This document shows, in pieces, positions 70 to 16,183 of a DNA stretch of 64,000 nt; the stretch's first letter is position 1, and every line of letters begins with the position of its first letter. The stretch covers positions 248,001 through 312,000 of the forward strand of contig NZ_AUBG01000001.1 in the NCBI RefSeq assembly GCF_000429125.1. Direction: 5' to 3'. Position numbers and translations under genes: made by a program. The stretch is from Aequorivita capsosiphonis DSM 23843 (GTDB lineage: Bacteria > Bacteroidota > Bacteroidia > Flavobacteriales > Flavobacteriaceae). The notes beneath the pieces are model-generated. The model was not told the origin of the DNA, ran no database searches, and saw only the letters and a list, made by a program, of their open reading frames with translations.

Positions 70-2079
70 CTACTCTTTTTTGGAAAGCAAAGCCTTTGCT
101 CTTTTTATAACGTTTTCTACAGTGAAGCCGTATTCCTTCATAACCTCAGGTCCTGGTGCTGATTCACCGTATTTATCAATTCCTATTACATCACCATCAT
201 CCGTTACATATTTTAGCCAACCAACAGGAGATCCAGCCTCTACTGACAGTCGTTTTCGTATTTTCTTTGGAAATATTTTTTCTCGGTAAGCGTCACTTTG
301 TTTATCAAATAAACTCCAGCATGGCATGCTAACAACTCGTGCCTCAATAGCATCTTTCTTCAATTTTTCCTGAGCGCCTAAAATCAATTGAACTTCAGAT
401 CCGGTGGCTATTAAAATAATATCTGGATCGCCATCAGAGTCAGAAAGAATGTAAGCCCCTTTCTCAAGGTTTTTTGCTTTAGCGTATTTATTCTGATCGA
501 TAATAGGAAGTTTTTGACGCGTTAAGGAAAGTGCCACAGGTCCATCGGTATGATTAATTGCAACACGCCAAGCATGTGCGGTTTCATTGGCATCTGCGGG
601 ACGAATTACCATCATATTTGGAACAGTGCGCAAACCAATCAACTGTTCAACGGGCTGGTGGGTAGTTCCGTCTTGACCTAGCGCAATACTGTCATGTGTA
701 TAAACCATAATGGTCCGGATTTTCATGATGGCAGCCAATCTAAGCGGTGGCCGCATATAATCTGAAAATATTAAAAATGTAGCACCATAGGGAATTAGAT
801 ACTTGCTTAATGCCATTCCGTTGAGTATTGCTCCCATCGCGTGTTCGCGAATTCCGAAGTGGAAGTTACGCCCATCGCGGTGTTTGGGTTCAAAGGATTT
901 ATAATCATTGAGATTGGTATCTGTGGATGGTGCAAGATCTGCTGATCCACCAATCATTTGTGGCAAATATTCCGCAATCGCATTCAAGGTTTTTCCTGAA
1001 GCTTTACGTGTAGCCATTTCGTCTCCAGGTTCAAAAACGGGTAGTTTCTTCTCCCAATCATCAGGCCATTTTCCTGAAGTGATTGTCTCGTATTCTTCGG
1101 CAAGATCTGGATGACGTTTCTTATAATTTTTATATAATTCGTTCCAATCTTCCTCGTATTTAGCAGATTTCTTTCCGGCTTTTCTATAAAAATCCAGAAC
1201 TTCATCGGGGACAACGAAATTTTTATCCGGATCAAAGCCGAAGTTTTCCTTAACCAAACGCACCTCATCCTTTCCCAAAGGTGAACCGTGCGCGGCTGCG
1301 GTATCGTGCTTATTGGGACTTCCATAACCAATATGACTTCGGATGATTATTAACGAAGGCCGATTTGTTTCTTTTTGAGCATTTTTAATGGCTTTCGATA
1401 CTGCTTCCAAATCATTTATATCAGGTAACTTTTGAACATACCAGCCATAAGCTTTGAAGCGTTCTTCTACATTTTCATCAAAAGCAAGGTCGGTATCTCC
1501 TTCAATTGTAATCTCGTTATTATCGTAGAAATAGATAATATTTCCCAGTTCCAGATGGCCGGCAAGTGAAGCGGCTTCCGCAGAAACTCCTTCCATAAGA
1601 TCGCCATCACTGCAAATAGCATAAATAGTATAATCGAAAATTTTGAAATCCGGTTGGTTGTAGCGCGCAGCAATATATTTTTGGGCAATAGCCATTCCCA
1701 CTCCATTGGCAAATCCCTGTCCCAAAGGCCCAGTGGTGACTTCAATTCCGGGAGTAAGACCGTATTCTGGATGGCCAGCAGTTATACTGTGGAGTTCCCT
1801 GAAATTTTTAAGGTCGTTTAGTGTAATTTTATATCCGGTTAAATACAAATAACTGTATTGCAACATACAGGCGTGCCCACAAGAAAGAACAAAACGATCG
1901 CGATTTGCCCAATCTGGATTTTTAGGATTATAATGCATTACTTCTGCCCACAGTAAGTGACCTAAGGGCGATAGCGCCATTGGTGTTCCGGGATGTCCGG
2001 AGTCTGCTCTTTGTACGGCATCAGCCGATAAAACTCTTACGGTATCAATGCCTTCTTGAACTATATTTTTACTTTTCAT
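70..2079 (-). CDS. tkt: Transketolase
   Basis: Thiamine-diphosphate enzyme of the non-oxidative pentose phosphate pathway that moves two-carbon ketol units between sugar phosphates in the cytoplasm. At 669 residues it has the usual full length. The N-terminal part carries the HPGTPMALSP substrate loop and the ThDP/Mg motif GDGDLMEG-like stretch (SDGDLMEGVSAEA, then YDNNEITIEG). The middle carries HDSIALGQDGTTHQPVEQL, typical of the pyrimidine domain. The C-terminal domain is complete. The start ATG is at 2079. Rpe and class I aldolase are encoded nearby on the same strand, so pentose and triose metabolism genes cluster, but gaps of over 100 bases make a single operon unlikely. Confidence 0.97.
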   Translation of the reverse strand: MKSKNIVQEGIDTVRVLSADAVQRADSGHPGTPMALSPLGHLLWAEVMHYNPKNPDWANRDRFVLSCGHACMLQYSYLYLTGYKITLNDLKNFRELHSITAGHPEYGLTPGIEVTTGPLGQGFANGVGMAIAQKYIAARYNQPDFKIFDYTIYAICSDGDLMEGVSAEAASLAGHLELGNIIYFYDNNEITIEGDTDLAFDENVEERFKAYGWYVQKLPDINDLEAVSKAIKNAQKETNRPSLIIIRSHIGYGSPNKHDTAAAHGSPLGKDEVRLVKENFGFDPDKNFVVPDEVLDFYRKAGKKSAKYEEDWNELYKNYKKRHPDLAEEYETITSGKWPDDWEKKLPVFEPGDEMATRKASGKTLNAIAEYLPQMIGGSADLAPSTDTNLNDYKSFEPKHRDGRNFHFGIREHAMGAILNGMALSKYLIPYGATFLIFSDYMRPPLRLAAIMKIRTIMVYTHDSIALGQDGTTHQPVEQLIGLRTVPNMMVIRPADANETAHAWRVAINHTDGPVALSLTRQKLPIIDQNKYAKAKNLEKGAYILSDSDGDPDIILIATGSEVQLILGAQEKLKKDAIEARVVSMPCWSLFDKQSDAYREKIFPKKIRKRLSVEAGSPVGWLKYVTDDGDVIGIDKYGESAPGPEVMKEYGFTVENVIKRAKALLSKKE

Positions 2080-2111
2080 CTGTAGATTATATTTGTTTTT
2101 TAATGGTCATA

Positions 2112-2131
2112 CCTGCCTACCTGCAGGCTGG
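2112..2131. repeat. Imperfect copy of palindrome family A
   Basis: CCTGCCTACC followed by TGCAGGCTGG matches the perfect palindrome at 35-54 in 17 of 20 positions. It lies in the 115-base gap between the transketolase start and the NADH dehydrogenase stop. Confidence 0.5.
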
Positions 2132-2194
2132 TGTAATTCGCACATCATTTTCAGTATGAACTAAAAATTTTTCGACTGCGCTCATTTCATAACT

Positions 2195-3493
2195 TTATGC
2201 TTCTTCTTTTTCTTTAACTTCCTTTTTTTCTGTCTCAGGATTAAATTCAGCCGGCTTTAATATCATTCCCAAGGGTTGATCGTAGCTGAAATAACTCACC
2301 GCCCAATCAATAAAAGTGACGGTTTTATCACGAAATCCAAGCAAGGAAAAAATGTGTACAAACATCCATACGAACCAGGCAAAGCCACCTTGAAATTTGA
2401 AATTCGGCAGATCGACCACGGCCCTTTTCCTACCAATTGTGGCCATCACTCCTTTATTGTGATACTCGAAAGGCTCCATCTCTTTGTTTGCAAGAATTTT
2501 CAATATATTTTTGGCGAGATGCTCGCCTTGCTGTTGTGCAACCGGCGCCAGCATAGGTAATCCTTTGGGATTTTCAGAAGTAATATAAGCAGCCACATCT
2601 CCGATTGCAAAAATATTGTTGGTGCCTTTTACTTTATTATATTCGTTGACCGAAATTCGATGACTGACGATAGCTTCGTCGGGAAAGCCTTTTATTGGTG
2701 ATCCTTTTACTCCTGCAGACCATATTACTGTATCGGTTGTAAAGCTGCTTCCGTCTTCCATCATGATAGTCTTATCGTCATACTTTTTAACGCGGGTGTT
2801 GAGGAAGACATTCACGCCCAATTCCTTTAAATATTCAAGGCTTTTTTCAGAAGCTTCTTGTGACATGCCGGCAAGTAAATCAGGACCAGATTGGTAAAGA
2901 TTGACGCTCATTTTAGAAAGCGGAAGTTCCGGAAATTCCTTCGGGATAACATGCTTTCTCATCTCGGCCAGCGCTCCGGCGAGTTCAATTCCTGCTGGGC
3001 CACCTCCAACTATGGCGATATTCATAATCTCCTCAATAGGTTCTTTTCTATTATTGGCCAAAGCGTGCTCCAGATTTTGAAAAATCCGATTGCGCATTTG
3101 CAGTGCGTCGGGCAAGGATTTTAAGGTGAGGAGTCTATTTTTAACAGGTTCGAAATTGTAAAAGTTTGTTTCGCTTCCAGATGCAACAATCAAGTAATCA
3201 TAATCTATTGTACCAATGGAAGTTGAAATTTGATTTTTATCGATATTGACCGAAAGCACTTCCGCCATTCGAAAGTTGACGTTTTTATATTTACAAAAAA
3301 TCCGTCGAACGGGATAAGCGATATTTCCGGGTTCCAATCCACCTGTTGCCACCTGATACATCAAGGGTTGAAAATTGTGGTAGTTGTTTCTATCAATAAG
3401 AAGCACTTCTACTGATTTTTTATGAAATGATCTAACCATTTTCACACCGCCAAACCCAGCGCCAACTATTACTATTTTAGGTGTTTTCGCCAT
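2195..3493 (-). CDS. ndh: Type II NADH:quinone oxidoreductase (NDH-2)
   Basis: Single-subunit, non-proton-pumping NADH dehydrogenase that feeds electrons from NADH to menaquinone at the inner face of the membrane. The N-terminus has the FAD Rossmann motif (IVGAGFGGVKMV, residues ~8-20). A second dinucleotide fold for NADH starts at IAIVGGGPAGIELAGALAEM (~160-178), and FAIGDVAAY lies near residue 295. The C-terminal ~60 residues hold a hydrophobic stretch (GFAWFVWMFVHIFSLLGF), consistent with membrane association, and end in a very acidic/basic EKKEVKEKEEA tail. The length (432) is normal. It could work with the quinol-oxidising complex encoded at 22-28 kb. Confidence 0.95.
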   Translation of the reverse strand: MAKTPKIVIVGAGFGGVKMVRSFHKKSVEVLLIDRNNYHNFQPLMYQVATGGLEPGNIAYPVRRIFCKYKNVNFRMAEVLSVNIDKNQISTSIGTIDYDYLIVASGSETNFYNFEPVKNRLLTLKSLPDALQMRNRIFQNLEHALANNRKEPIEEIMNIAIVGGGPAGIELAGALAEMRKHVIPKEFPELPLSKMSVNLYQSGPDLLAGMSQEASEKSLEYLKELGVNVFLNTRVKKYDDKTIMMEDGSSFTTDTVIWSAGVKGSPIKGFPDEAIVSHRISVNEYNKVKGTNNIFAIGDVAAYITSENPKGLPMLAPVAQQQGEHLAKNILKILANKEMEPFEYHNKGVMATIGRKRAVVDLPNFKFQGGFAWFVWMFVHIFSLLGFRDKTVTFIDWAVSYFSYDQPLGMILKPAEFNPETEKKEVKEKEEA

Positions 3494-3757
3494 TAAAATT
3501 TACAATTCTACTTTAAAACTCCAAATTTGATTTTTAAGCTATAATAATACTTCATTAAAAAGCATTATTTTAAATGAATTTTTATCATTATAAAATTAAG
3601 AACCTAAAGGTAATCTATAATTTTCGTAAATATTTACACAAGCCATTTCATAATTTACAATATTCCCACCTCGAATAAAAGGTTTGAATATTTCCGGTTT
3701 AACACGAATTTTTTTTATACTTCAATAGGTTAATTGACTTAGAATATTGTTTTCTTG

Positions 3758-4129
3758 TTATTCATTATCTTCTTCAAGATCATTGTGATTGTCTCCTCCA
3801 AGGCTATAATAATTATTTTCTTCATCTTCTTTCCCTGAGTTTGCTTTGGCCTCGTCATCTTTTGAACCTGGAACATCGAGGTCTTCAGCAGTCATATCTT
3901 CCGGAAAATCCTTTTCATTTCGTTGATTAGATTCAACGGGAGGTTTTTTGGTTTTACTTGGATCTTCAGGATTTAAATCTGTTTCTTTTTCGTTGTTATA
4001 AATATCCTCGGAAGCGGGATAGTGTGGATAACCGGGAAAACCTTTTTTTTCTGCTTTGTCTTGTTTTTGAACTGGAATTTTATCCTTGATCTGACTGGAC
4101 TTATGGACATCTTTTTCTTCGTTTTTCAT
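3758..4129 (-). CDS. Acidic, probably disordered protein of unknown function
   Basis: A 123-residue protein without signal peptide or membrane segment, built almost entirely of charged and polar residues. It falls into a basic first third (KSSQIKDKIPVQKQDKAEKK), a PGYPHYPASEDIYNNEKE centre and an acidic tail with EDEENNYYSLGGDNHNDLEED. The length without internal stops, the ATG start and the motif-like tail argue that it is real. I recall similar conserved tails in other Bacteroidota hypothetical proteins but cannot name a family. Function unknown. It stands alone, with 112 bases to the aldolase gene. Confidence 0.75.
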   Translation of the reverse strand: MKNEEKDVHKSSQIKDKIPVQKQDKAEKKGFPGYPHYPASEDIYNNEKETDLNPEDPSKTKKPPVESNQRNEKDFPEDMTAEDLDVPGSKDDEAKANSGKEDEENNYYSLGGDNHNDLEEDNE

Positions 4130-4241
4130 TTTTTTTTAAATTTTGATAATAGCATTGTGCTTTTTGCTATGTAATTATTAGAATTTTGGCAATATTCATC
4201 TATTTTGTAGAATCAACCTGAACTCCTTCAATCAGGATACA

Positions 4242-5261
4242 CTATTTTTCCATATCAGGCTTGTATTCACCGCGACATGCGGCTGCATTAAGCTTGACGC
4301 GATGGTGCAATGCCTGTTGCGCTTTTTCTATATTTTCTTCCTTTCCATTCCAGATATCAATGGAGGGATGCTGCAAGGCTCTACTAAATGAAAAGACAAG
4401 AGCCCAAGGCATTTTAGGTTTATATTTTTTATTCATCGCATTTAAACGCTCTGTTGCCAGTTTCGAAGATTGACCGCCCGACAAAAATGCCACGCCGACA
4501 ACGGAAGCGGGCACACATCGCAATAAGCATTTTACGGTAGTTTCGGCAATTTCATCTGTGCTTGATTGTTCGGAGCAATCAGATCCAGGTAAAATCATAT
4601 TTGGTTTTAAGATCATCCCCTCAGCTAAAATGCGTTGTTTATGCAACTGGTCAAAAACAATATGCAATACTTGCTCGGTGACGGATAAGCATGTTTTTAA
4701 ATCGTGTTTTCCTTCCATCAAAACCTCAGGTTCTACCATTGGCACTAACCCCGCTTCTTGACAAAGTGCCGCATAGCGCGCCAACACAATTGCGTTATTC
4801 TCAATACATCTACGTGTTGGAATGCTGTCTCCAATTTTTAGTACCGCTCTCCATTTGGCAAAACGCAGTCCCATTTCGCTGTATTCAGATAGTCTTTCAC
4901 GTAAACCATCTAGACCCGCGGTTATTTTTTCGCCAGGAAAACCAGCCAACTCCTTTGCTCCCATATCCACTTTGATTCCGGGGATGATGCCGGCATCTAT
5001 AACAGCTTCTACAAATGGAGTTCCATCGGAAAGCTTCTGTCTAACAGTTTCATCATACAAAATTGCACCGTTGACCCCTTCTTTGAGTCTCGGAGTCGTC
5101 ACAATCATTTCACGGTAACGTCGGCGCATTTCTGCAGTTTGTGGGATTCCCAAAGCGGCAAAACGTTTGTTACAAGTAGGGTTACTCTCATCCATAGCTA
5201 ATAGTCCCTTATTGTCAGCCACCATTGCCTTAGCAGTTTTTATTAGTTCGGCTTCATTCAT
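4242..5261 (-). CDS. Class I fructose-bisphosphate aldolase
   Basis: Schiff-base aldolase that cleaves fructose 1,6-bisphosphate to dihydroxyacetone phosphate and glyceraldehyde 3-phosphate. It is 339 residues long. Family motifs in order: LLAMDESNPTCNKRFAALGI near the N-terminus, WRAVLKIGD (~138), VEPEVLMEG (~178), the active-site lysine region MILKPNMILPGSD (~217) and FLSGGQSSKLATERLNAM (~258). It resembles the plant/animal-type class I enzyme rather than the metal-dependent class II enzyme. Start ATG at 5261. Together with tkt and rpe it links glycolysis/gluconeogenesis with the pentose phosphate pathway. Confidence 0.95.
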   Translation of the reverse strand: MNEAELIKTAKAMVADNKGLLAMDESNPTCNKRFAALGIPQTAEMRRRYREMIVTTPRLKEGVNGAILYDETVRQKLSDGTPFVEAVIDAGIIPGIKVDMGAKELAGFPGEKITAGLDGLRERLSEYSEMGLRFAKWRAVLKIGDSIPTRRCIENNAIVLARYAALCQEAGLVPMVEPEVLMEGKHDLKTCLSVTEQVLHIVFDQLHKQRILAEGMILKPNMILPGSDCSEQSSTDEIAETTVKCLLRCVPASVVGVAFLSGGQSSKLATERLNAMNKKYKPKMPWALVFSFSRALQHPSIDIWNGKEENIEKAQQALHHRVKLNAAACRGEYKPDMEK

Positions 5262-5419
5262 TTGATTCTATTCTTTTTTGATGTGACCATTAAAATTAAA
5301 TATATCTAACTAAGAAAGCTTATACTATCCGAAGTATAGTTTATAAAATTCCCACCCCAATACTGCAAAAAAAGCACAGAACCTTTTGATCAACTTCTTT
5401 ACTGATAACATTACCAAGA

Positions 5420-5495
5420 CATTGATCATTAACAAATTAAGAGACATTAAGGATAGGCTGAGCACCTTACTCTCTTAATACCTTAATGGTTCAGA
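5420..5495. repeat. Dispersed TTAATACCTTAATGG-type repeat phrase
   Basis: The gap between the aldolase start and the rpe stop contains AATTAAGAGACATTAAGG and, inverted, CTCTTAATACCTTAATGGTTCAG. A closely similar phrase (CAATTAAGGTATTAAG ... CCCTTAATGGCTCA) occupies 7283-7367. The two halves within each copy are roughly inverted relative to each other, so this looks like a degenerate dispersed intergenic repeat. It is not a gene. Confidence 0.4.
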
Positions 5496-5516
5496 ATAAT
5501 TAAATTATCTTGATGT

Positions 5517-6167
5517 TTAAGCTTTCTTCAGAGCCGCAATGGTTTCAAAAGGGTTCTTAGATCCAAAAACCGCACTCCCAGCGACCAATATATCTGCACC
5601 TACCTTAATAAGTTTTGACGCATTCAATAGATCAACACCACCATCTACTTCTATTCGGGTTTTTGAACCCGTTTTTTCTATTAAATTCCGGACTTTATCA
5701 ATTTTTCGATAGGTATGTTCTATAAAATTTTGTCCTCCGAAACCTGGATTAACCGCCATAATTAGCACTTGGTCAATATCAAATATAATATCTTCCAGAT
5801 TGTTTACAGCAGTATGTGGATTAAGCGCAACACTTGCTCGCATTCCTTCTTGCTTAATGGATTGAATAGTACTGTTTAGATGAACGCAAGCTTCTATATG
5901 AACTATTAAATTACTCGCACCGGCTTCCTTAAACCTACTGATGTAACGTTCTGGCTTTATTATCATCAAATGTACGTCCAGCGGTTTTGATGTATACTTT
6001 TTAATAGCCTCCATCACCGGAAAACCAAAAGAGATATTCGGAACAAAAACACCATCCATAATATCAACGTGAATCCAATCGGCATCGCTTTGGTTGAGCA
6101 TTTCGATGTCCGTTGCAAGATTGGCAAAATCACCAGAGAGAATAGAAGGTGCTATTAGGTGTGACAT
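5517..6167 (-). CDS. rpe: Ribulose-phosphate 3-epimerase
   Basis: TIM-barrel epimerase interconverting D-ribulose 5-phosphate and D-xylulose 5-phosphate in the pentose phosphate pathway. At 216 residues it is standard length. It begins LIAPSILSGDFANL and has the metal-binding motifs HVDIMDGVFVPN (~33-44) and DVHLMI (~64). MAVNPGFGGQNF (~138) and EVDGGV (~173) form the phosphate and catalytic loops, and it ends with VAGSAVFGS. All expected catalytic regions are visible. It is transcribed towards the aldolase and transketolase genes. Confidence 0.97.
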   Translation of the reverse strand: MSHLIAPSILSGDFANLATDIEMLNQSDADWIHVDIMDGVFVPNISFGFPVMEAIKKYTSKPLDVHLMIIKPERYISRFKEAGASNLIVHIEACVHLNSTIQSIKQEGMRASVALNPHTAVNNLEDIIFDIDQVLIMAVNPGFGGQNFIEHTYRKIDKVRNLIEKTGSKTRIEVDGGVDLLNASKLIKVGADILVAGSAVFGSKNPFETIAALKKA

Positions 6168-6665: not shown

Positions 6666-7226
6666 ATGTTCATATACATTAAATACATGGTTAGTTTACG
6701 CTGCAAAATGGTAGTAAAGCAAGAACTGCAAAAACTAGGATTACACTATGTAAATGTAGAACTAGGAACAATTGAAATATTAGAAACCCTTAGCGTTTCA
6801 CAAAAAAGACAACTTCGTAAAAACCTAAAGGTATATGGTTTGGAGCTGCTTGACGACAAGCGGAACATCATTATTGAAAAAATCAAGGCCGTAATCATCG
6901 AAATGGTCCACTATGCCGATGAACTTCCAAAAGTGAACTATTCAGATTACATAAGTGAAAAATTGGAATATGACTATACATATCTAGCCAACACATTTTC
7001 CGAAGTAAAAGGCATCACCATTCAGCAATATATTATCCTAAACAAAATTGAACGGGTAAAAGAACTTTTAATGTATGATGAGCTAAATCTTACTGAAATA
7101 TCCTATAAACTTCATTATAGCAGCGTGGCACATTTATCCAACCAGTTTAAAAAAGTTACAGGGCTTACACCAACCTACTTTAAAGGACTAAAAAAGAAAC
7201 GTCTGAAAAACCTCGAGGATTTGTAA
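6666..7226 (+). CDS. HMA-like domain fused to AraC-type DNA-binding domain
   Basis: A 186-residue regulator with two parts. Residues ~1-65 resemble a heavy-metal-associated ferredoxin-like fold (IKYMVSLRCKMVVKQELQKLG). Residues ~95-180 form an AraC double helix-turn-helix (NKIERVKELLMYDELNLTEISYKLHYSSVAHLSNQFKKVTGLTP region). In related Bacteroidota regulators as I remember them, the N-terminal loop is CxxC; here the first position is Ser10 with only Cys13 kept, so metal or thiol sensing may be lost or altered. It lies upstream of the glycan island in the same direction but 330 bases away, so control of that island is plausible but unproven. Confidence 0.85.
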   Translation: MFIYIKYMVSLRCKMVVKQELQKLGLHYVNVELGTIEILETLSVSQKRQLRKNLKVYGLELLDDKRNIIIEKIKAVIIEMVHYADELPKVNYSDYISEKLEYDYTYLANTFSEVKGITIQQYIILNKIERVKELLMYDELNLTEISYKLHYSSVAHLSNQFKKVTGLTPTYFKGLKKKRLKNLEDL

Positions 7227-7556
7227 AAAAATTTTGCGTTCAAAACCACTCTTTTATTATATTATTTCCTACCTGCTGATAACAATTAAGGTATTAAGTA
7301 GTTAAGTAGAATTGAGGTTTTAGTGGAAATTACGCTAACTAAATTTCCCTAATCCCTTAATGGCTCAAAAAATACTTAATGTTTAAAAAAATAAAACTAT
7401 TCATGCGCTTAAATTTATAAAACCAATGTGGGAATGCTATAAATCTTCTTCTTTCCTATGTAATATATTTTTCAATAAAATAAACCATCTTTAAACTATG
7501 GTTAGATTTATAGTACAGAAAACCACAATCTGGATTTATCCTATTAAATTTTAGCG
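7227..7556. other. Intergenic region upstream of the cupin gene
   Basis: 330 AT-rich bases with a TTAATGG-type dispersed repeat phrase at about 7283-7380, resembling the one at 5420-5495. No RNA gene or convincing promoter pair was identified. The cupin operon promoter should lie here. Confidence 0.45.
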
Positions 7557-7895
7557 ATGGAAAACACAGAAATTGAAAAATCAAAAGCCTTAATCATGGT
7601 GGAGATAATAGAATATGTTCCCAATGCTGTTGTCATAAAAACAATAATTAAGAAAACGACCGGAAGTGTAATTGCTACTTCAAATGATTCTGGTGAAGAC
7701 CTAATCGAAAAAGTATTGCCGTTCGATAAGTTTATACAAATAATCGAAGGGCAGGCCGAAATAGTAATCAACGGCGATTCGCATAGCTTAAAAACCGGAC
7801 AGGCCATCATTATCCCAGCCCATTCCAACAACACGATTAAAGCCAACGAGCGTTTTAAAATGATTTCTACCGTTATTAAAAGTGGTTATGAATAA
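7557..7895 (+). CDS. Small cupin-fold protein
   Basis: 112 residues forming one conserved beta-barrel domain of the cupin type: VIEYVP start, then DKFIQIIEGQAEIVINGDSHSLKTGQAIIIPAHSNNTIKA (split here by domain, not quoted whole) and a MISTVIKSGYE end. The glycine-rich turns fit cupin motifs 1 and 2. The histidines that normally bind metal in motif 1 are replaced (FDKFIQ where HxH is usual), so a metalloenzyme role is doubtful. It is likely cotranscribed with the PIG-L gene 12 bases downstream. Possible roles are sugar binding or isomerisation, or a regulatory sensor. Confidence 0.85.
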   Translation: MENTEIEKSKALIMVEIIEYVPNAVVIKTIIKKTTGSVIATSNDSGEDLIEKVLPFDKFIQIIEGQAEIVINGDSHSLKTGQAIIIPAHSNNTIKANERFKMISTVIKSGYE

Positions 7896-7907
7896 TTAGA
7901 CAAAAAA

Positions 7908-8585
7908 ATGAAAGGAATCATGATCCCTTCTGAAGTTTTAACAAAAGAAAAAAACATAGCCGTCATCGTAGCCCATCCCGATGATGAAACCCTTTGGTGC
8001 GGCGGAACGATGCTATTACATCCCGACTGTAACTGGTTCGTTGCCTGTTTATGTAGAAAAAATGATGCTGATAGGGCTCCAAAATTTAAAAAAGTACTAG
8101 AAATATTAAAGGCGGAAGGTATCATGGGAAATCTTGATGATGGCGCAAGACAAAGACGTTTAGATAGGAAAGCCGTAAAGCGAGTAATTTTAGAATTACT
8201 CCCAAAACAGAGCTTCAACCTGATTATAACCCACAGTCCTTTTGGTGAATACACCAGACATTTACGTCACGAAGAAATTGGTAGAGCAGTTATAGCACTT
8301 TGGAAGGATAAAAAAATAAAAACCAAAAAACTATGGGCCTTTGCTTATGAAGATGGAAATAAAGAATACTATTCTCAAGCTATTAAAGACGCAAGTATTT
8401 ATCAAACACTTTCGCAAGATATCTGGGAAGAAAAACACAGAATAATTACTGAGGTTTACGGTTTTCAAAAAACAGGTTTCGAAGCCAAAACAACGCCTAA
8501 AAGTGAAGCCTTTTGGGAATTCGAGAATCCGAAAGATGCTCTAAACTGGCTAGATAAGAAAGAAATTGAAAACAAAGAAACATAA
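7908..8585 (+). CDS. PIG-L (LmbE) family N-deacetylase
   Basis: Zinc-dependent deacetylase of the family that includes MshB, BshB and PIG-L, which remove the acetyl group from GlcNAc attached to an acceptor. The diagnostic VAHPDDETLWCGG motif is at residues ~21-33 (His23, Asp25, Asp26). The third ligand region is HLRHEEIG (~122-129) after THSPFGEY. The length (225) fits. It is nine bases upstream of the GT4 gene, the same pairing used for mycothiol and bacillithiol. The neighbours lack a cysteine ligase, however, and the sequence is not close to BshB as I know it. The substrate is therefore probably an N-acetylated glycoside made by the adjacent glycosyltransferase. Confidence 0.9.
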   Translation: MKGIMIPSEVLTKEKNIAVIVAHPDDETLWCGGTMLLHPDCNWFVACLCRKNDADRAPKFKKVLEILKAEGIMGNLDDGARQRRLDRKAVKRVILELLPKQSFNLIITHSPFGEYTRHLRHEEIGRAVIALWKDKKIKTKKLWAFAYEDGNKEYYSQAIKDASIYQTLSQDIWEEKHRIITEVYGFQKTGFEAKTTPKSEAFWEFENPKDALNWLDKKEIENKET

Positions 8586-8594
8586 CTATATTAT

Positions 8595-9737
8595 ATGAAA
8601 GTTTTGGTGCTTTATGATTATCCTCCTTCTCCTGGCGGCCTTGCAACTCAAGGCGATATGCTTTACAAAGGGCTAATGAATCTTGGTGTGGAAGCCAAAG
8701 CAGCACATTTTGAATCGGCTCAGGAAAAGGAATGGTATTACCGCTGGTTTGAACCTGATATTGTGGTGGGAGTAGGCTATTGGGGCCATACACCTCATAT
8801 TATTCTTCATCCTCAACGCTATGGTATTAGAGCAGTGCCCTGGCTGGTAGCCGATGGATATATTGCCAATTATCAGGAAGTCTTAAACGAACTGCCCCTT
8901 ATTTTGGTAACTTCAAATTGGGTGAAAGAGATGTATGTCCGGGATGGCATCAAACCCGATAATATTGAAGTACTTCCCGTAGGTTGTGATACTTCAGCTT
9001 TTATTCCTTTTGATAAAAATGACCCAAAAATTTTATCAGTTCGAGAATCCTTGGGGATTTCACCAGACCAGCTCATGATTTTGACCGTAGGTGGTGATGC
9101 CGCTTCAAAAGGAGCGCAGGAAGTAATGCAAGCACTCTCAATAATAGATACCAAAGCACCAGACTGGAAATACGTTTGTAAAGTATGGCCGCAACCACGA
9201 ACCAAAGTGCAAAATATGCTCGACCTGAAAATGGCAGAGTCTCTTGGTCTCGAAAAGAATATTACGTACGCCACCAACACTGTTTCACGAAACTTTATGC
9301 CTTATTTAATTGGTGCCTGCGATATTTATGCCGCACCTTCACGCCTTGAAGGCTTTGGAATGCCACAGGTAGAAGCTGGCGCATGCGGCAAACCTGTCAT
9401 TGGGATCAAAGCCATGGGTATGTTAGATACACTTATCCATAACAAAACTGCTTTTCTGGCAGAAGTAGCCAAAAAAATTGTTGTAGATGAAGTCGTTTTA
9501 GGTGAAGAATCGGGTTTTGAAAGCAGTCGAAAAGTGCGATTCGATACTCCTCGAATCGTTGATTACCGTGCCAACGTCCAGAATATTGCCACCTATATGC
9601 TCCGACTTATGGAAGATGAGGAACTTAGAGTTAAAATGGGAAAAGCAGGAAGAGAGCGAGCAGTAGAATATTTTGACAATACTGTTGTTACCAAAAGGTT
9701 TGTAAAAATAATCCAAGATAAGCTGGGGATAAATTAA
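8595..9737 (+). CDS. GT4-family glycosyltransferase
   Basis: Retaining GT-B glycosyltransferase of 380 residues with no signal peptide or membrane segment, so cytoplasmic. The N-terminal Rossmann domain starts MKVLVLYDYPPSPGGLATQ. The C-terminal nucleotide-sugar domain has TVGGDAASKGAQEVMQAL and the EX7E-type stretch APSRLEGFGMPQVEAGACGKPVI (~315-335), which is typical of GT4. It lacks the N-terminal signature of BshA. It lies nine bases after the PIG-L gene and 178 bases before nagB. Donor and acceptor are unknown; the deacetylase pairing suggests transfer of GlcNAc, and that is inference. Confidence 0.9.
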   Translation: MKVLVLYDYPPSPGGLATQGDMLYKGLMNLGVEAKAAHFESAQEKEWYYRWFEPDIVVGVGYWGHTPHIILHPQRYGIRAVPWLVADGYIANYQEVLNELPLILVTSNWVKEMYVRDGIKPDNIEVLPVGCDTSAFIPFDKNDPKILSVRESLGISPDQLMILTVGGDAASKGAQEVMQALSIIDTKAPDWKYVCKVWPQPRTKVQNMLDLKMAESLGLEKNITYATNTVSRNFMPYLIGACDIYAAPSRLEGFGMPQVEAGACGKPVIGIKAMGMLDTLIHNKTAFLAEVAKKIVVDEVVLGEESGFESSRKVRFDTPRIVDYRANVQNIATYMLRLMEDEELRVKMGKAGRERAVEYFDNTVVTKRFVKIIQDKLGIN

Positions 9738-9915
9738 TATAAGATGATTATCCATAGAGTTTCTTAGAAGTTTATATGACAAAAGACATATAACTCTATT
9801 AATTTCCATAAAAAAACATTCATTACTATTTTGACTTATGTCCGAGGTCTATGTTAGGATGATAAACGGATAAACATTTAATACAAATCGAGTCAACAAC
9901 TTAAATAAAGTAAGC

Positions 9916-10722
9916 ATGAGAGTTCTAATAAAACAAGACGAAAATAAGATCGCTCAGTGGACAGCCAATTATTTAATTAAAAAGATAAATGATTTCAATC
10001 CAACAATAAAAAAGCCCTTCGTTCTTGGATTACCAACAGGTTCGTCGCCAATTGCTACCTATAAGGAACTAATTAGGAGGAATAAAATAGGAGATATATC
10101 CTTTAAGCACATAATTACTTTCAATATGGACGAATACATTGGCATTCCTGAAAATCATCCCCAGAGCTATCATTCCTTTATGTATGAGAAGCTCTTCAAC
10201 CACATTGACATTCCTAGTGAAAACATAAATATTTTAAAAGGTAACGCATCCAATCTGGAAAAAGAATGTATTGAATATGAGAAGAAGATATTAAAATATG
10301 GAGGCATTGACATTTTTCTAGGAGGCATAGGTATGGATGGACATATCGCCTTTAACGAACCAGGGTCTTCACTGACTTCCAGAACCAGTATAAAAATACT
10401 TTGCTATGATACCATTCAAGCCAATTCTAGGTTTTTTGAAAATGATGCACACCAAGTACCTTCCGCAGCATTAACCGTTGGTGTTGGAACCATTATGGAC
10501 GCAAGAGAAGTGCTGGTCATTGTTAGTGGTTATAAGAAGGCAAGAGCATTAAAAGAGGTAGTAGAAGGCGCCGTAAACCACATGTGGCCTGCTTCTATGC
10601 TCCAAATGCATCCAAAATGCATCTTAGTTTGCGATGAACCCTCAACCTTGGAGTTCCAGGTTAAAACAGTAAAATATTTTAAAGATATCGAACGTATTTC
10701 CACGGATGGAAGTCCTCAGTAA
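9916..10722 (+). CDS. nagB: Glucosamine-6-phosphate deaminase
   Basis: Converts glucosamine 6-phosphate to fructose 6-phosphate and ammonia, or the reverse. It has 268 residues, the usual NagB length. Signatures are LGLPTGSSPIATYKEL (phosphate loop), the catalytic FNMDEYIGIP (~69-78) and LGGIGMDGHIAFNEPGS (~132-148, with the acid/base histidine). The ring-opening and allosteric regions look intact. It sits between the PIG-L/GT4 pair and the toroid hydrolase, suggesting supply or recycling of amino sugar for this island rather than general chitin catabolism. No nagA or transporter is adjacent. Confidence 0.93.
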   Translation: MRVLIKQDENKIAQWTANYLIKKINDFNPTIKKPFVLGLPTGSSPIATYKELIRRNKIGDISFKHIITFNMDEYIGIPENHPQSYHSFMYEKLFNHIDIPSENINILKGNASNLEKECIEYEKKILKYGGIDIFLGGIGMDGHIAFNEPGSSLTSRTSIKILCYDTIQANSRFFENDAHQVPSAALTVGVGTIMDAREVLVIVSGYKKARALKEVVEGAVNHMWPASMLQMHPKCILVCDEPSTLEFQVKTVKYFKDIERISTDGSPQ

Positions 10723-10741
10723 ACCCGATAAAAGAAACGCC

Positions 10742-11917
10742 ATGCCACTTGAAAAAGACAAACAGATTGAAGAAGCCAAGAAAGCTGCCATTGATGTGCT
10801 TTTGCACAATTCTCATGGAACTGTTGCAAATTTGCCCCGAACAGCAGGCTGGGGATATCCCGAACCCTATACCAGAGACTTATTAATATCAGTATTGGGA
10901 ATAGCCTCAAGTGGAAATGCAGAACTTATAAGTAGCGTAAAAAATGTTCTAATTACTCTTGCCGAAAATCAATCGGATAACGGGCAAGCACCGTCACTTG
11001 TGAATGATAAGAAAAACCGCGGTTCTAGCGATACCACACCACTATTTTTGATGGCAGTAGGTGTTTACAGAAACCTAACCAATGATCCAAATTTTCTAAA
11101 AACCGCAGTAGATAAAGCGCTTGTTTGGATGCAATACCAATGCCCTACCAGCCATTATTTAATAGCGCAACAACCAACAAGTGATTGGCGTGACGAACAG
11201 TGGGTGCTGGGTTATGGTCTTTTCGTAAACACTACAACATATAGCGCTCTCAAACTTTTAGGAGAAGAAAAACGAGCTAAAAACCTTGGCAATGCAATTC
11301 AACAACTAACTTATACTTCGGATAAACTGCATACTTGTGCGCACGAAGGGCTTGCAATTAAAGACAAACCTTATTTCGCATTATGGTCTTACAAAGTGTA
11401 CAGCAGCGAGCGGTTTGACTTATTAGGAAACAGCCTCGCAATTCTTTCTGGCTTGGCCTCGCCAGAAAAAGCTAAGAAAATGGTGAAATGGATAGAAAGC
11501 GAATGTGAATCAATGCATAAAACAAAGGAATTAGCGCTCGACCTTACACCCAATTTTTTTCCATTTATTCAACCTGAAGATGCGGATTGGTTACCGAGGT
11601 ATTCCGAATATAATAATCCTGGAGATTATCACAACGGTGGAATCTGGCCATTTATCAGCGGATTTTATATTGCAGCGCTCGTGGCATCCAAAGAATATGA
11701 TTTGGCAGAGAAAAAACTGCTCGCACTTACAAACCTCATCAAAAAAGGCGGGGACGATAAATTAGAGTTTAGCTTTAACGAATGGTATAAAGCCCAAACT
11801 GGAAAACCCATGGGGCAGGATTGGCAAACTTGGAGTGCCTCTAATTATTTGTACGCAACAGCCTGTGTTCAAGAAAGACGAACCCCGTTTTTTGAGGAGA
11901 TTCGGTCGAAATTATAA
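10742..11917 (+). CDS. (alpha/alpha)6-toroid glycoside hydrolase, GH100/amylo-alpha-1,6-glucosidase-like
   Basis: A 391-residue enzyme beginning MPLEKDKQIEEAKK; an upstream ATG at 10706 overlaps the end of nagB and is less likely. Visible family features are GWGYPEPYTRDLLISVLGIA (~30-50, containing the catalytic acid region), DWRDEQWVLGYG, FALWSYKVYSSERFDLLGNSLAIL and HNGGIWPFISGFYIAAL. GQDWQTWSASNYLYA comes near the end. This matches neutral/alkaline invertase (GH100) and glycogen-debranching C-terminal toroids. No signal peptide, so cytoplasmic. The substrate could be sucrose, a glucoside or an oligosaccharide of this island. It starts 19 bases after nagB, so likely in its operon. Confidence 0.85.
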   Translation: MPLEKDKQIEEAKKAAIDVLLHNSHGTVANLPRTAGWGYPEPYTRDLLISVLGIASSGNAELISSVKNVLITLAENQSDNGQAPSLVNDKKNRGSSDTTPLFLMAVGVYRNLTNDPNFLKTAVDKALVWMQYQCPTSHYLIAQQPTSDWRDEQWVLGYGLFVNTTTYSALKLLGEEKRAKNLGNAIQQLTYTSDKLHTCAHEGLAIKDKPYFALWSYKVYSSERFDLLGNSLAILSGLASPEKAKKMVKWIESECESMHKTKELALDLTPNFFPFIQPEDADWLPRYSEYNNPGDYHNGGIWPFISGFYIAALVASKEYDLAEKKLLALTNLIKKGGDDKLEFSFNEWYKAQTGKPMGQDWQTWSASNYLYATACVQERRTPFFEEIRSKL

Positions 11918-12285
11918 ATGTATAAAACATTAGCAAAATCAATTAACGTTGATATTAGTTTAAGATGATGAACGTTATTCATTAAATTCTTAACTCAAAG
12001 CAATATGTGAATTATGTAACTCTAACCTCCTTATCTTCAACTTTATTCACACATTATTCGATATCTTTATATGTTGTTTAATGCTATCTAAAAAGCAAAA
12101 GACACAGCAAAAATTAAGAAAAAGAGAATCGAAAATAGGTTTTTCCAAAAGTAAAACCTTCAATTTTACTTGGAATTTCTTTAAGTCTTAGCGTATTTAT
12201 ATAGAAAGTATATGCTTAAATCAAAAAATCGCTAATATTGAATCATTAAGCCAATTTTCACCAATCTCCTCTAAACCAACTAAAC
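11918..12285. other. Intergenic region upstream of GT4-toroid gene
   Basis: 368 AT-rich bases with no ORF of protein-like composition, no RNA gene and no long inverted repeat. The long gap implies that the downstream glycosyltransferase fusion has its own promoter. Confidence 0.5.
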
Positions 12286-14577
12286 ATGAAAATTGCTTTT
12301 GTAGCTACATATCCCCCACGAGAATGCGGAATAGGAACATTTACGCAAAGTCTCGCAAATGCGCTAAAGAATAAGGATGATGATGAAAATGAAATTATTG
12401 TTATCGCCATGCACGATAATCAAGAAAAATATGCATTTCCTCCTGAAGTAAAACTAACAATACATCAAGAGCGTCAAACCGATTATTTGAAAGCTGCTGA
12501 TTTTATAAATCGTAGTGGCGCAGAAGTTTGTATTCTTGAACATGAATTTGGTATTTTCGGAGGCCAAAGCGGTGTATATATTCTTCCACTGTTACATAGG
12601 TTGCAGATTCCATTGATTTCAACTTTACACACCATTCTTGAAACTCCCTCATACACCGAAAAGGCCATTTTAAAACAGATTTGTAAAATGTCTGATAAAT
12701 TGGTCGTGATGAGTTACAAAGCCATTCAATTTCTTAAAAATATCTACGACGTTCCTTCAGAAAAAATTGCTCGAATAGAACACGGAGTTCCCAATATTCA
12801 TTTTAATAAAGAGAAATCCAGAGCCGAATTGAAGTTTAGCGATAAAAAACTGCTTTTGACCTTTGGTTTCGTCGGGCGTAACAAAGGAATTGAAACAGTT
12901 ATTAAAGCCTTACCAAAAATAATTGAAAAGCATCCTGAAGTATTTTATGTAGTCTTGGGAAAAACACATCCGAACGTGCTCAGATCTGAGGGCGAAGAAT
13001 ACCGAAATTACCTTCAAGTGCTTATAAAAACATTAAAACTTGGCGATCATGTTCTTCTTCTTAATGAATTTATAGAAGAAAGGGAACTTTTTAAATATTT
13101 GGCGGCATCAGATATTTATATTACACCTTATGTTAATGAAGCTCAAATTACCAGTGGAACCCTTACGTATGCCATGGGTTCTGGTTGCGTTGTTGTTTCC
13201 ACACCATATTGGCATGCAGCAGAATTACTTACTGAAAACAAAGGCTGTCTTTTTGATTTTAGAGATGAAAATGCCTTGGCCAAAATCTTGAATAAATTAC
13301 TGGATAAGCCTGAAATGATGAAGACCATTCAGAAAAATGCGGAAGAATATGGACAAGACATCATCTGGCCAAAAATTGGACAGCGATACTTCGAACTTGC
13401 TGAACACTTGGTTTCTGAGCCTGCAAAACCAGAACCAAAAAAAGAAATGGACATCGACCTTCTGCTGTTGCCACCGTTTTCATTAGCGCATATTAAAAGA
13501 ATGACCGACGATACGGGGATTATTCAACACGCCAAATTTGGAATTCCCAATTTGAAAGAAGGCTATTGTCTTGACGATAATTCTCGGGCACTGCTTATGG
13601 TTTGTATGACTTATAAGCAGAAGAAGAGTGAAATCGCTTTAGAGTTGATGCCCATTTACCTCAGCTACATCCACTATATGCAAAATAAAGATGGCACCTT
13701 CCGGAATTTTCTAAGCTTTAACCGGAATTTTCTTGATGAAGTGGGCTCTGAAGATTCCTTCGGAAGAACGATTTGGGTACTAGGCTATCTTATGGGCCAC
13801 GCACCGAATGATGCGTATTACCAAACAGCAAAATTGGTTTTCTTTGATGCTTCACCCAATTTTGAGAAAATGAAATCTATCAGAGGAATAGCAAATACAA
13901 TGATTGGCATATGCTACTATCTGAAAACAAATCCAGATGACGGTGGCATGAAAATGTGCTTACTGAGAATGACGGATATCTTAGTGGTTCATTTCGAACA
14001 AAATCAATCGAAAAACTGGAACTGGTTTGAATCGCTTTTGGCTTATGATAATGGTATTTTACCACTTGCCTTACTTCATGCTTCACAGGTTTTGGAGAAC
14101 AAAAAAGCAAAAGACGTCGCCTTCGAAGCAATGCGTTTTCTTACTACGCACACCCTCAAAGATGGCTATCTGTCAGTAATTGGAAACAGACAGTGGTTTG
14201 TAAAAGATAAGGAACGCTCCATCTATGCGCAGCAACCCATTGATGCTATGGCGATGGTGCTTATGTATCACCAAGCTTTCGTTTTAACTGGACAAAGAGA
14301 ATACTTAGATAAACTGTTTACTTCCTTTATGTGGTTTTTGGGCGAAAATGATCTCCGGATGAATTTATACGATTTCGAGACAAAAGGATGTTGTGATGGT
14401 TTTGAGGATTATGGTGTAAACCGAAATCAGGGAGCCGAAAGTTCTTTAGCGTATCTCATTTCACACCTTACTGTTTTACAGGCGTATGAAGAATCTTATC
14501 ATTTTCGGGAATTAAGCGATTTAAGCAATTCAACCAACCATACACCAAAACACAGCGGGTTGGAGGTTGCTAAATAA
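12286..14577 (+). CDS. GT4 glycosyltransferase fused to C-terminal helical toroid domain
   Basis: A 763-residue two-domain protein. Residues 1-~385 are a GT-B transferase: VATYPPRECGIGTFTQSLA at the start, LEHEFGIFGGQSG, EHGVPNI, LTFGFVGRNKGIETVIKALP and YITPYVNEAQITSGTLTYAMGSGCVVVSTPY (in parts). After a KPEPKKEMDID linker, residues ~400-750 are helix-rich (DDNSRALLMVCMTYK, EDSFGRTIWVLGYLMGH, NWNWFESLLAYDNGILPLALLHAS, DGFEDYGVNRNQGAESSLAYL) and resemble an (alpha/alpha)n glycoside-processing fold. No signal peptide. Converges with the GH130 gene. The fusion suggests one protein that builds and trims or senses a chain. The product is unknown; mannosyl transfer is a guess from the GH130 neighbour. 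Confidence 0.88.
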   Translation: MKIAFVATYPPRECGIGTFTQSLANALKNKDDDENEIIVIAMHDNQEKYAFPPEVKLTIHQERQTDYLKAADFINRSGAEVCILEHEFGIFGGQSGVYILPLLHRLQIPLISTLHTILETPSYTEKAILKQICKMSDKLVVMSYKAIQFLKNIYDVPSEKIARIEHGVPNIHFNKEKSRAELKFSDKKLLLTFGFVGRNKGIETVIKALPKIIEKHPEVFYVVLGKTHPNVLRSEGEEYRNYLQVLIKTLKLGDHVLLLNEFIEERELFKYLAASDIYITPYVNEAQITSGTLTYAMGSGCVVVSTPYWHAAELLTENKGCLFDFRDENALAKILNKLLDKPEMMKTIQKNAEEYGQDIIWPKIGQRYFELAEHLVSEPAKPEPKKEMDIDLLLLPPFSLAHIKRMTDDTGIIQHAKFGIPNLKEGYCLDDNSRALLMVCMTYKQKKSEIALELMPIYLSYIHYMQNKDGTFRNFLSFNRNFLDEVGSEDSFGRTIWVLGYLMGHAPNDAYYQTAKLVFFDASPNFEKMKSIRGIANTMIGICYYLKTNPDDGGMKMCLLRMTDILVVHFEQNQSKNWNWFESLLAYDNGILPLALLHASQVLENKKAKDVAFEAMRFLTTHTLKDGYLSVIGNRQWFVKDKERSIYAQQPIDAMAMVLMYHQAFVLTGQREYLDKLFTSFMWFLGENDLRMNLYDFETKGCCDGFEDYGVNRNQGAESSLAYLISHLTVLQAYEESYHFRELSDLSNSTNHTPKHSGLEVAK

Positions 14578-14599
14578 GCCATCAGATTTTGTTCAGGCT

Positions 14600-14619
14600 C
14601 TTCTTGTAAAAACAAGAAG
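14600..14619. terminator. Hairpin between convergent GT4-toroid and GH130 genes
   Basis: Eight-base stem CTTCTTGT / ACAAGAAG with an AAAA loop, 23 bases after the stop of the plus-strand gene. There is no T-run after it, so terminator function is uncertain. A second, looser inverted pair, GTCCTCT (14648-14654) and AGAGGAC (14691-14697), follows. Confidence 0.4.
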
Positions 14620-14713
14620 TAGCATGAAAGACTTACTTAAACTTTACGTCCTCTGCGTTTCCAGCGGTAATTTATCTAACACAAAGACAAAGAGGACACA
14701 AAGTAAGCAGTTT

Positions 14714-16174
14714 CTAATTCTTCAGGCCTTCAAATAATGCATCCATTTCTACCACTGCATACGTGGTAGAATAATCTGAAACCGCATAAGGCAGAATTAG
14801 ATTGTTATTATGAATAATCGAGCCGCAAGAATATACTACATTTGGAACGTATCCTTCCCGTTCGTTTTCTATGGGCATAAGCAGAGGCTCTTCGAGTCGC
14901 CCAATTTCTTTAGTGGGGTCATCTAAGTCGAAAAGTGAGGCACCAATACAGTAGCGGCGCATGGGGCCAACTCCGTGCGTGATTATCAACCATCCTTTTT
15001 CAGTCCATAAAGGCGAGCCACAATTTCCTATCTTTGAAAACTCCCAAGGGTACTTTGGTTCCTGAAGCAGAATCGGATTATTCCAAAGTGTATTTCTATC
15101 AGAGAACATGATATAATTATTAACACCGTCTAATCTGGAGAGCATTGCATATTGTCCTTTTATTTTTCTGGGAAAAAGTGCCAAGTTTTTACCCAAAGCA
15201 CCTTTGCCGTGCAAAGGCATAATTCTAAATGTACAAAAATCACTCGTGGAAAGAAGTTTTGGTAAAATAGTGTGACCGTTATAAGCAGTATAGGTGGCGT
15301 AAAACTTAATGCATCCATCGTCATCTACAAAACGCACAAAACGGGCATCTTCTATTCCATTACTTTCCGATTCTGAAATTGGATAAATTACACGTTCACT
15401 AATATCTGAGTCATGTTCAAACTCAATATCATAATAAGAATCTACCAACCAAGTAATTTCTTCAAGAGCAAGTTTTTTTGCATCACTTATTTCTGAATCC
15501 TTCAGAATATTATTTACCGATTTTTTTAAGGTGATATATTCAAAATGATCCGGTAAATCATCTACAATAATATTAAAGTACTTTTCAGGAATGTTCATTT
15601 CTCTCATTTTTTTTACAAACCTTCCCTTGTGGTATGATTTTTTTTGAGAGATTTCTGCCACATCCATCGATTTTCCTATGCTCATCAAGTGTAAATCGTT
15701 ATTTTTATCAAGTATAGCTCTTCTGAATACGATTGAAGAGATATGCCCCTCACCAGTAGCTCTAAACGAAATAATAACGCGCTTTTCCCCTTCCTCTAAA
15801 TAAGTCTGATCTACATCGGGAATAATAGATGGGTTAAAAAACGCAGTCGATTCTAGGGAGTACTCCATGGTAAGGTAGGATCCGATAAGCAGTTTACGCT
15901 CACCAGATATATCATCAATATTAACATCCATTTGCTCAATTAAGCTCAGTGCATTGTTATAATGCTTGTTAAAGAGATGGGTAATATTACGATGCCGGTA
16001 TGCAAATTCTCTTAGGGTTTGTTCTAGGGCAATATGAACATCGCTTTCACTCATTGCAAAAACCAATGCTAGCATATCTTTTGTTGCCGATTCCCCATTC
16101 ATAAAATAGCGGGCCACTACCCTACTAGAATCGGGAAGAAATTTTAACTGTTTTCGTGTTACAGGAACTCTCAT
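14714..16174 (-). CDS. GH130-family glycoside phosphorylase, probably mannoside-acting
   Basis: A 486-residue protein starting at ATG 16174; an upstream TTG at 16183 is the only longer option. The C-terminal ~330 residues carry GH130 features: ATGEGHISSIVFRRA, GIEDARFVRFVDDDG (conserved E-D-A-R acid region), GNCGSPLWTEKGWLIITHGVGPMRRYCIGASLFDLDDP (in parts) and EGYVPNVVYSCGSII. GH130 enzymes phosphorolyse beta-mannosides. The first ~150 residues are an extra helical region not found in short GH130 enzymes. No signal peptide, so it should act on cytoplasmic oligosaccharide, releasing mannose 1-phosphate without spending ATP. Faces the GT4-toroid gene. Confidence 0.9.
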   Translation of the reverse strand: MRVPVTRKQLKFLPDSSRVVARYFMNGESATKDMLALVFAMSESDVHIALEQTLREFAYRHRNITHLFNKHYNNALSLIEQMDVNIDDISGERKLLIGSYLTMEYSLESTAFFNPSIIPDVDQTYLEEGEKRVIISFRATGEGHISSIVFRRAILDKNNDLHLMSIGKSMDVAEISQKKSYHKGRFVKKMREMNIPEKYFNIIVDDLPDHFEYITLKKSVNNILKDSEISDAKKLALEEITWLVDSYYDIEFEHDSDISERVIYPISESESNGIEDARFVRFVDDDGCIKFYATYTAYNGHTILPKLLSTSDFCTFRIMPLHGKGALGKNLALFPRKIKGQYAMLSRLDGVNNYIMFSDRNTLWNNPILLQEPKYPWEFSKIGNCGSPLWTEKGWLIITHGVGPMRRYCIGASLFDLDDPTKEIGRLEEPLLMPIENEREGYVPNVVYSCGSIIHNNNLILPYAVSDYSTTYAVVEMDALFEGLKN

Positions 16175-16183
16175 TTTATTCAA

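Follow-up and report, generated by a model that had tools for sequence, protein, structure and literature searches.

A conserved PIG-L/GT4/GH100-like gene trio and a linked glycosyltransferase-toroid/GH130 module in Aequorivita capsosiphonis and other Bacteroidota: possible making and recycling of intracellular glycosides

A 64,000-nucleotide stretch of the genome of Aequorivita capsosiphonis DSM 23843 (contig NZ_AUBG01000001.1, positions 248,001 to 312,000; hereafter the window, with positions counted from its first letter) contains, between positions 6666 and 16174, a run of carbohydrate-active genes that an original prediction made from the sequence alone had described as a single glycan island. 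Its core is a trio of genes on the forward strand, which we call module A: a PIG-L-type N-deacetylase (7908-8585; PF02585, 39.1 bits, cut-off 28.2), a GT4 glycosyltransferase (8595-9737; PF00534, 79.4 bits, cut-off 26.4) and a GH100-like (α/α)6 glycoside hydrolase, here named TOR (10706-11917; PF12899, 49.4 bits, cut-off 23.6). In the window, nagB lies between the last two (9916-10722, forward strand), and its product is predicted to be a glucosamine-6-phosphate deaminase with a TIGR00502 score of 409.5 bits against a cut-off of 236.9. Module B follows. It comprises a 763-residue protein in which a GT4 half (76.2 bits, cut-off 26.4) is fused to an (α/α)6 toroid (12286-14577, forward strand) and, on the reverse strand, a long GH130 protein, a predicted β-mannoside phosphorylase (14714-16174; PF04041, 97.4 bits, cut-off 26), which starts at an ATG at 16174 or at a TTG giving 14714-16183. 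PIG-L is separated by 9 bases from GT4 and by 12 bases from a small accessory cupin-like gene upstream of it (7557-7895, forward strand), and nagB and TOR overlap by 17 bases. The open reading frame (ORF) list and translations bore out the gene positions and the 12- and 9-base spacings of the original prediction exactly. Its gene classes stood at curated cut-offs for PIG-L, GT4, NagB, GH100 and GH130, while the cupin, at 22.2 bits, fell below its cut-off of 27.2. The predicted fusion was recovered as well, the GT4 half by Pfam and the toroid half, which had no Pfam match in the family scan, by a structural model matching PDB 7tem. The first ORF of the interval, absent from the original prediction, encodes an AraC-type regulator (HTH_18, 54.1 bits, cut-off 33.6; 6666-7226, forward strand).

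The trio is a conserved unit. A search of 84,980 species genomes with GT4 gave 284 relatives, and the best 80 (L050 to L129, with 77-85% GT4 identity) were kept and compared by ORF clustering of the fetched flanking sequence, which at some loci is truncated where the contig ends. Carriers of the trio in this search include Gelidibacter, Christiangramia/Gramella, Leeuwenhoekiella and Flavobacterium. A PIG-L ORF is present at 76 of the 80 loci, a TOR ORF also at 76, and both at 72; at all 72 the three genes share a strand and run PIG-L, GT4, TOR, the median gaps between them being 17.5 and 19.5 bases. For the eight remaining loci, which were searched by tblastn, contig ends account for five: at L082, L097, L106 and L117 the contig stops at or just past GT4, with a partial TOR in three of them, and at L104 it begins just ahead of GT4, on the PIG-L side. 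At L127 PIG-L is found about 7.6 kb upstream, and at L102 only a short PIG-L-like piece matches. Among 395 genomes of the phylum, GT4 (E 1e-50) was detected in five and TOR (E 1e-30) in the same five, including the genome of the window; GT4 is present in 4 of 99 genomes of the relatives' sample and in 2 of 28 genomes of the window's own genus. Thus, the trio is rare and patchily distributed, and it is kept whole. The cross-genome co-occurrence that had been expected is therefore found for the trio, whereas the single island is not: nagB is not a core gene, and the fusion and GH130 form a separate and much commoner module. Five of the 80 records are titled as non-Bacteroidota (Eubacteriaceae, Thalassobius, Proteobacteria, ANME-2 and Melioribacter metagenome-assembled genomes, MAGs), and since such rows lie among Bacteroidota rows in the GT4 tree, at least some of them are likely to be mis-binned contigs. 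In Gelidibacter mesophilus (L057:9358-9968) PIG-L is split across two frames, which could reflect a pseudogene or a sequencing error, and Maribellus maritimus 5E3 has two copies of the trio on separate contigs (L064 and L076). Searches of open-licence papers gave no title in which this trio is described, which does not show that it is unpublished.

Key residues of the three proteins are intact. In PIG-L, H23, D25, D26 and H121, presumably the His/Asp motif of the zinc site, show no change in any of the 59 aligned rows, and in GT4 the same is true of E252 and E260 (40 of 40 rows), which we take to be the Glu pair of a retaining GT-B GT4 enzyme. Together with the Pfam scores, these motifs assign the two proteins, as far as sequence can tell, to the PIG-L deacetylase class and to the retaining GT-B family. 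The AlphaFold2 model of TOR has a mean predicted local distance difference test score (pLDDT) of 85.0 and a predicted template modelling score (pTM) of 0.90, and its Foldseek matches at ranks 1-28 are GH100 invertases, with a template modelling score (TM) of 0.68 and 18% identity for InvB. E359 of TOR is aligned to the Glu conserved among the invertases, which is presumably catalytic in GH100, and D58, D163 and E359 do not vary across the 62 aligned rows. The modelled fold and a Pfam score above cut-off both place TOR in GH100, and the invertase-like fold, the aligned glutamate and the three invariant residues indicate that it is very probably an active inverting-type α-glycosidase. TOR shares the Pfam family, the fold and the conserved Glu with the alkaline/neutral invertases InvA, InvB and CINV1, but it is only about 18% identical to them, at sequence level the match is confined to the C-terminal half, and PIG-L and GT4 are its partners in a conserved operon.

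The Foldseek matches that come after the invertases, namely dextran dextrinase, GH94, glucosylglycerate hydrolase and GH63 mannosylglycerate hydrolase, together with the invertases themselves, are what would be expected if the trio carried out a compatible-solute or stress-sugar cycle, in which the product of GT4 would be a neutral α-glycoside akin to glucosylglycerate, mannosylglycerate or sucrose, TOR would hydrolyse this product and PIG-L would act on some other N-acyl group. The neighbourhood of the trio is also consistent with such a cycle. When 41 trio loci were compared with 38 regions from five trio genomes (39 of the 80 loci, shorter than 19 kb, and two short control pieces, L223 and L224, were left out), genes for Usp (8/41 vs 0/38), Band_7 (8/41 vs 1/38) and BON (6/41 vs 0/38) proteins were commoner near the trio, as were those for CheB/CheR-PAS proteins (8/41 vs 0/38) and PAS kinases (15/41 vs 6/38). 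In the same comparison p 0.05 was not reached for Dps/ferritin (4/41 vs 1/38), for clusters 18 and 19 (4/41 vs 0/38 each), for GlgP (4 vs 0) or for cluster 23 (3 vs 0). The enrichment of stress genes is only suggestive, since the control is biased: the clusters under test had been picked for their recurrence near the trio. Related loci are also not independent. A stress-sugar cycle would give no account of why PIG-L is nearly universal, the conserved partner clusters include no phosphatase, and the record titles name not only marine isolates but also MAGs from fens and lakes. We consider this explanation rather doubtful.

GT4 and PIG-L enzymes act as pairs in the synthesis of mycothiol, bacillithiol and glycosylphosphatidylinositol. 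It is this pairing that the trio has in common with bacillithiol synthesis (BshA, BshB and BshC) and with mycothiol synthesis (MshA and MshB). The protein families are distinct, however. GT4 scored 43.5 bits with the BshA model (TIGR03999, cut-off 273.7), PIG-L scored 30 bits with BshB2 (cut-off 195.25), and the BshB1 model gave no PIG-L match at E 0.01. The genome has bacillithiol genes of its own on other contigs: one BshA that passes the cut-off (562.1 bits, contig C2), a BshB1 (303.3 bits, contig C13) and a single BshC match (463.7 bits, contig C5), so that the locus, which has an extra hydrolase gene, contains no BshC. The trio GT4 is 24% identical to the genome's own BshA over 220 residues, and PIG-L matches the genome's own BshB1 over 20 residues only. 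In phylogenetic trees the trio GT4s are split off by one branch, both in a first tree with 85 trio rows (support 100/99), where the remaining rows were, besides BshA, own-genome ORFs picked by length alone, some of them maybe not GT4s and two of them identical, and in a cleaner tree with 15 rows (100/99). The trio PIG-Ls are likewise on one branch (14 rows, 96/97, with a bootstrap that had not settled); long branches make deep placement in the GT4 and PIG-L trees unsafe. A bacillithiol locus or a variant of it would account for the shared enzyme classes, but with scores far below the BshA and BshB cut-offs, with separate, if very long-branched, clades and with BshA, BshB1 and BshC encoded elsewhere it is hardly credible, and by these profile and tree comparisons membership of the trio in the bacillithiol system is refuted. 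The original prediction that this is not a plain bacillithiol locus thus holds, and neither GT4 nor PIG-L was placed firmly within BshA or BshB. A mycothiol locus is rejected as well: by profile the nearest solved GT4s include MshA, but the trio GT4 reaches only 55.4 of the 462.5 bits that the MshA model requires.

A membrane glycolipid pathway of the glycosylphosphatidylinositol or glucosaminyl-phosphatidylglycerol kind, where GT4 and PIG-L would make a glucosaminyl lipid, is suggested by what we take to be a parallel pairing of PIG-A with PIG-L and by a weak match of GT4 to the NCBIfam model of N-acetylglucosaminyl-phosphatidylglycerol synthase. That match, at 38.4 bits, is far under the cut-off of 480, no lipid synthase or flippase is found among the conserved partner clusters, and a soluble-type hydrolase shares the operon, all of which makes a glycolipid product distinctly unlikely. 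Judged by the pathways compared here, the trio resembles GT4/PIG-L pathways in its apparent working and belongs to none of those tested.

Module B is much more widespread. Matches to the fusion (E 1e-60) are present in 74 of the 395 phylum genomes, as compared to five for the trio GT4; among the 74, one (G170) covers the GT4 half only and one (G100) is in two pieces. The predicted model of the fusion pairs a GT-B half with an all-helical one (pLDDT 85.9, pTM 0.61). The C-terminal half is a relative, in fold and in sequence, of the toroid protein YPO2471 (PDB 7tem; profile E 7.3e-21, model TM 0.70 by target length), but YPO2471 is a stand-alone protein annotated as exported, whereas here the toroid is fused to a GT4. 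The invariance of D430, D431, D490, E582, D704 and E718 in 39 of 39 rows suggests that the toroid half may be an enzyme. A common fold origin of this half and TOR is unsupported (hhalign probability 0.8 on the percent scale), though both are predicted toroids. In the long GH130 protein a GIEDAR motif, with D279 invariant, is kept in 23 of 23 rows and aligns with the GLED, GVED and GIED of solved members; this Asp is described as invariant in the GH130 family in the part of PMC4599007 considered here. This motif and the Pfam score point to membership in the GH130 five-bladed propeller family. R350 and H403 are also invariant in 23 of 23 rows, and the assignment leans tentatively towards a phosphorylase, in which basic phosphate-binding residues would be retained, rather than a hydrolase, in which Glu would take their place. 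The NCBIfam GH130 subtype models all scored below cut-off (132.8 of 550, 126 of 450 and 31.6 of 550 bits). GH130 adjoins the fusion in six of six full-length fusions of family relatives, and among the 29 best-scoring of the 74 fusion matches it is within about 1.5 kb in at least 17, the flanks being short. In Gelidibacter salicanalis IC162 (L037:9414-10562, also L051) the fusion is cut to its GT4 half of 383 residues and the trio is intact. At 8 of the 80 loci, in several Flavobacteriaceae (among others L060, L061, L065, L074, L084 and L114), a second, stand-alone GT4 of about 337 residues (cluster 15) comes right after the fusion.

In the flanks of the 80 trio loci, some of them cut short, the fusion is found at 48, GH130 at 40, both at 36 and neither at 28. 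In the comparison with control regions the fusion occurs at 30 of 41 trio loci and GH130 at 25 of 41, and each of them at 0 of 38 controls. The order and orientation of modules A and B vary by lineage, with several distinct arrangements, which implies that the two modules were joined, or kept together, more than once. Alternatively, A and B may be unrelated and share only a genomic stress neighbourhood, with TOR acting as a general invertase. The loci that have neither gene, the occurrence of the fusion mostly without the trio and the variable relative orientation of the modules are in line with this, while the control comparison and the repeated association in different arrangements argue against it, and we regard it as unlikely.

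Two described systems can be compared with module B. The Thermoanaerobacter GH130/GT4/GDP-mannose cluster (Teth514_1785-1796), according to the part of PMC4264767 considered here, likewise has GT4 and GH130 phosphorylases together in a single cluster with mannose 1-phosphate as the link, but the genes named there include an ABC transporter and a GH5 and no GT4-toroid fusion, PIG-L or TOR. The Leishmania GT108 mannogen enzymes, in the part of PMC8950772 likewise considered, share the idea of an intracellular β-mannan for which a GH130-like fold carries out both synthesis and phosphorolysis; they form a eukaryotic family with no GT4 fusion, and the likeness is one of idea.

The remaining genes of the locus are less constant. 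nagB is a lineage-specific insertion in the trio: its cluster was found at one of the 80 loci (L052), besides the window and a locus of a congener (L035), and at all three it lies between GT4 and TOR, so that a role as a core gene is rejected. Other genes interrupt the trio at the same place, namely one that we take to encode a short-chain dehydrogenase-like protein (L067, L071 and L072) and a pair that presumably encodes a DnaJ-like and a small CbpM-like protein (L058, L071 and L072). The AraC-type regulator cluster, which may include paralogues, was found flanking 29 of the 80 loci, and ORF clustering placed the cupin-like gene at 18. The idea that this cupin is a mannose-6-phosphate isomerase domain was not upheld, the match being weak (22.2 bits, cut-off about 27; E 0.001 against the cupin of L039). 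A protein of about 128 residues without a Pfam match (cluster 9, e.g., L065:6879-7262) is encoded near the trio at 15 of the 80 loci, often immediately upstream of PIG-L, and at 10 of 41 trio loci as against 0 of 38 control regions. Base composition reveals no sharp island edge, and a collection of plasmids gave no GT4 match at E 1e-20, so that carriage by plasmids is not supported. The promoter and terminator scan was uninformative (40 promoter-like sites, 42.8 expected; 7 terminator-like sites, 7.9 expected).

In this genome the locus is reached by a cluster of mannose-recycling and pentose-phosphate genes that spans 236.9-248 kb of the contig (G000:C1, L182) and positions 70-6167 of the window. 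The stretch about 8-11 kb ahead of the window start encodes ManA (144.2 bits, cut-off 116.2), a HAD-type member of the eukaryotic PMM family (50.2 bits, cut-off 22.4), a short GH130, glucose-6-phosphate isomerase (GPI), 6-phosphogluconolactonase, Zwf, Gnd, transaldolase and RpiB; this GH130 and that of module B are the only two GH130 matches of the genome. Within the window the cluster continues on the reverse strand with genes that we take to encode a transketolase-like protein (70-2079) and a class I fructose-bisphosphate aldolase-like protein (4242-5261), and with the second genome copy of ribulose-phosphate 3-epimerase (5517-6167). An acidic protein of about 123 residues without a family name is encoded at 3758-4129, and its relatives are near the trio at 6 of the 80 loci, including some outside the flavobacteria. 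At three Gelidibacter loci, ManA, PMM and GH130 genes are divergent beside AraC, cupin, trio and fusion, with GPI, 6-phosphogluconolactonase and Zwf in the same flank; at one of them (L051) the fusion is the one reduced to its GT4 half. Overall ManA is found at 4 of the 80 loci, PMM at 3, and any of nine pentose-phosphate or glycolysis genes at 5, and the link to central metabolism is lineage-specific.

The simplest reading of a GT4, a PIG-L and a glycosidase in one operon is that a compound is made, deacetylated and hydrolysed. We favour, with a probability of roughly 0.38, two linked cytoplasmic modules, of which A makes, deacetylates and hydrolyses a glycoside and B makes and phosphorolyses a mannoside; the enzyme classes, the intact key residues, the gene order, the co-occurrence and the nearby ManA, PMM and second GH130 genes are observed, and from them we infer the donors, the acceptor, the amino-sugar product, the reaction directions and the action of A and B in one pathway as follows. 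GT4 would transfer a sugar, most likely N-acetylglucosamine from its UDP derivative, to a small or lipid acceptor, and PIG-L would remove the acetyl group to yield a free-amine α-glucosaminide. TOR would cleave the α-glycoside once it is no longer needed, which means that the pool could turn over, and in the window's genus the freed glucosamine may enter glycolysis via NagB. On this reading the product of module A is an intracellular α-glycoside, probably with glucosamine as its sugar, the amino sugar being suggested by the class of PIG-L, whose relatives have an established role of this kind, and by the position of nagB in the window, L035 and L052. In module B the fusion and GH130 would make and phosphorolyse a mannoside, and in this genome mannose 1-phosphate could pass through PMM and ManA to fructose 6-phosphate and on to the neighbouring pentose-phosphate enzymes.

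Several observations weigh against this proposal. The best structural matches of TOR are sucrose-cleaving invertases and not glucosaminidases, nagB is not conserved alongside the trio, and pentose-phosphate or glycolysis neighbours are limited to the five loci mentioned above. The 28 loci with neither the fusion nor GH130 in flanks that are in some cases cut by contig ends, and the frequent occurrence of the fusion in the absence of the trio, mean that modules A and B may be independent. Finally, a retaining GT4 should give α-linkages and GH130 acts on β-mannosides, and GH130 is therefore unlikely to act on the bond made by the trio's own GT4; its role would have to lie either with a different mannoside or in synthesis instead of breakdown.

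A more far-reaching version of the two-module proposal, which we put forward only tentatively, is that the trio represents a third kind of bacterial GT4/PIG-L pathway: an intracellular glucosaminyl conjugate that would form a pool turned over by a hydrolase of its own and not an end product, with a connection in many Bacteroidota to a mannoside reserve that the fusion and GH130 would make and phosphorolyse, and here also to a pentose-phosphate cluster that would possibly supply NADPH under stress. Pairs of GT4 and PIG-L enzymes have led to important small molecules, such as mycothiol, bacillithiol and glycosylphosphatidylinositol. A distinct pair of this type, with a conserved GT4 and a hydrolase that nearly always adjoins it, offers a direct handle for metabolite hunting. 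If module B does make a mannoside reserve, this would bear on whether bacteria keep such a reserve as Leishmania does, a comparison raised in the part of PMC4264767 considered here.

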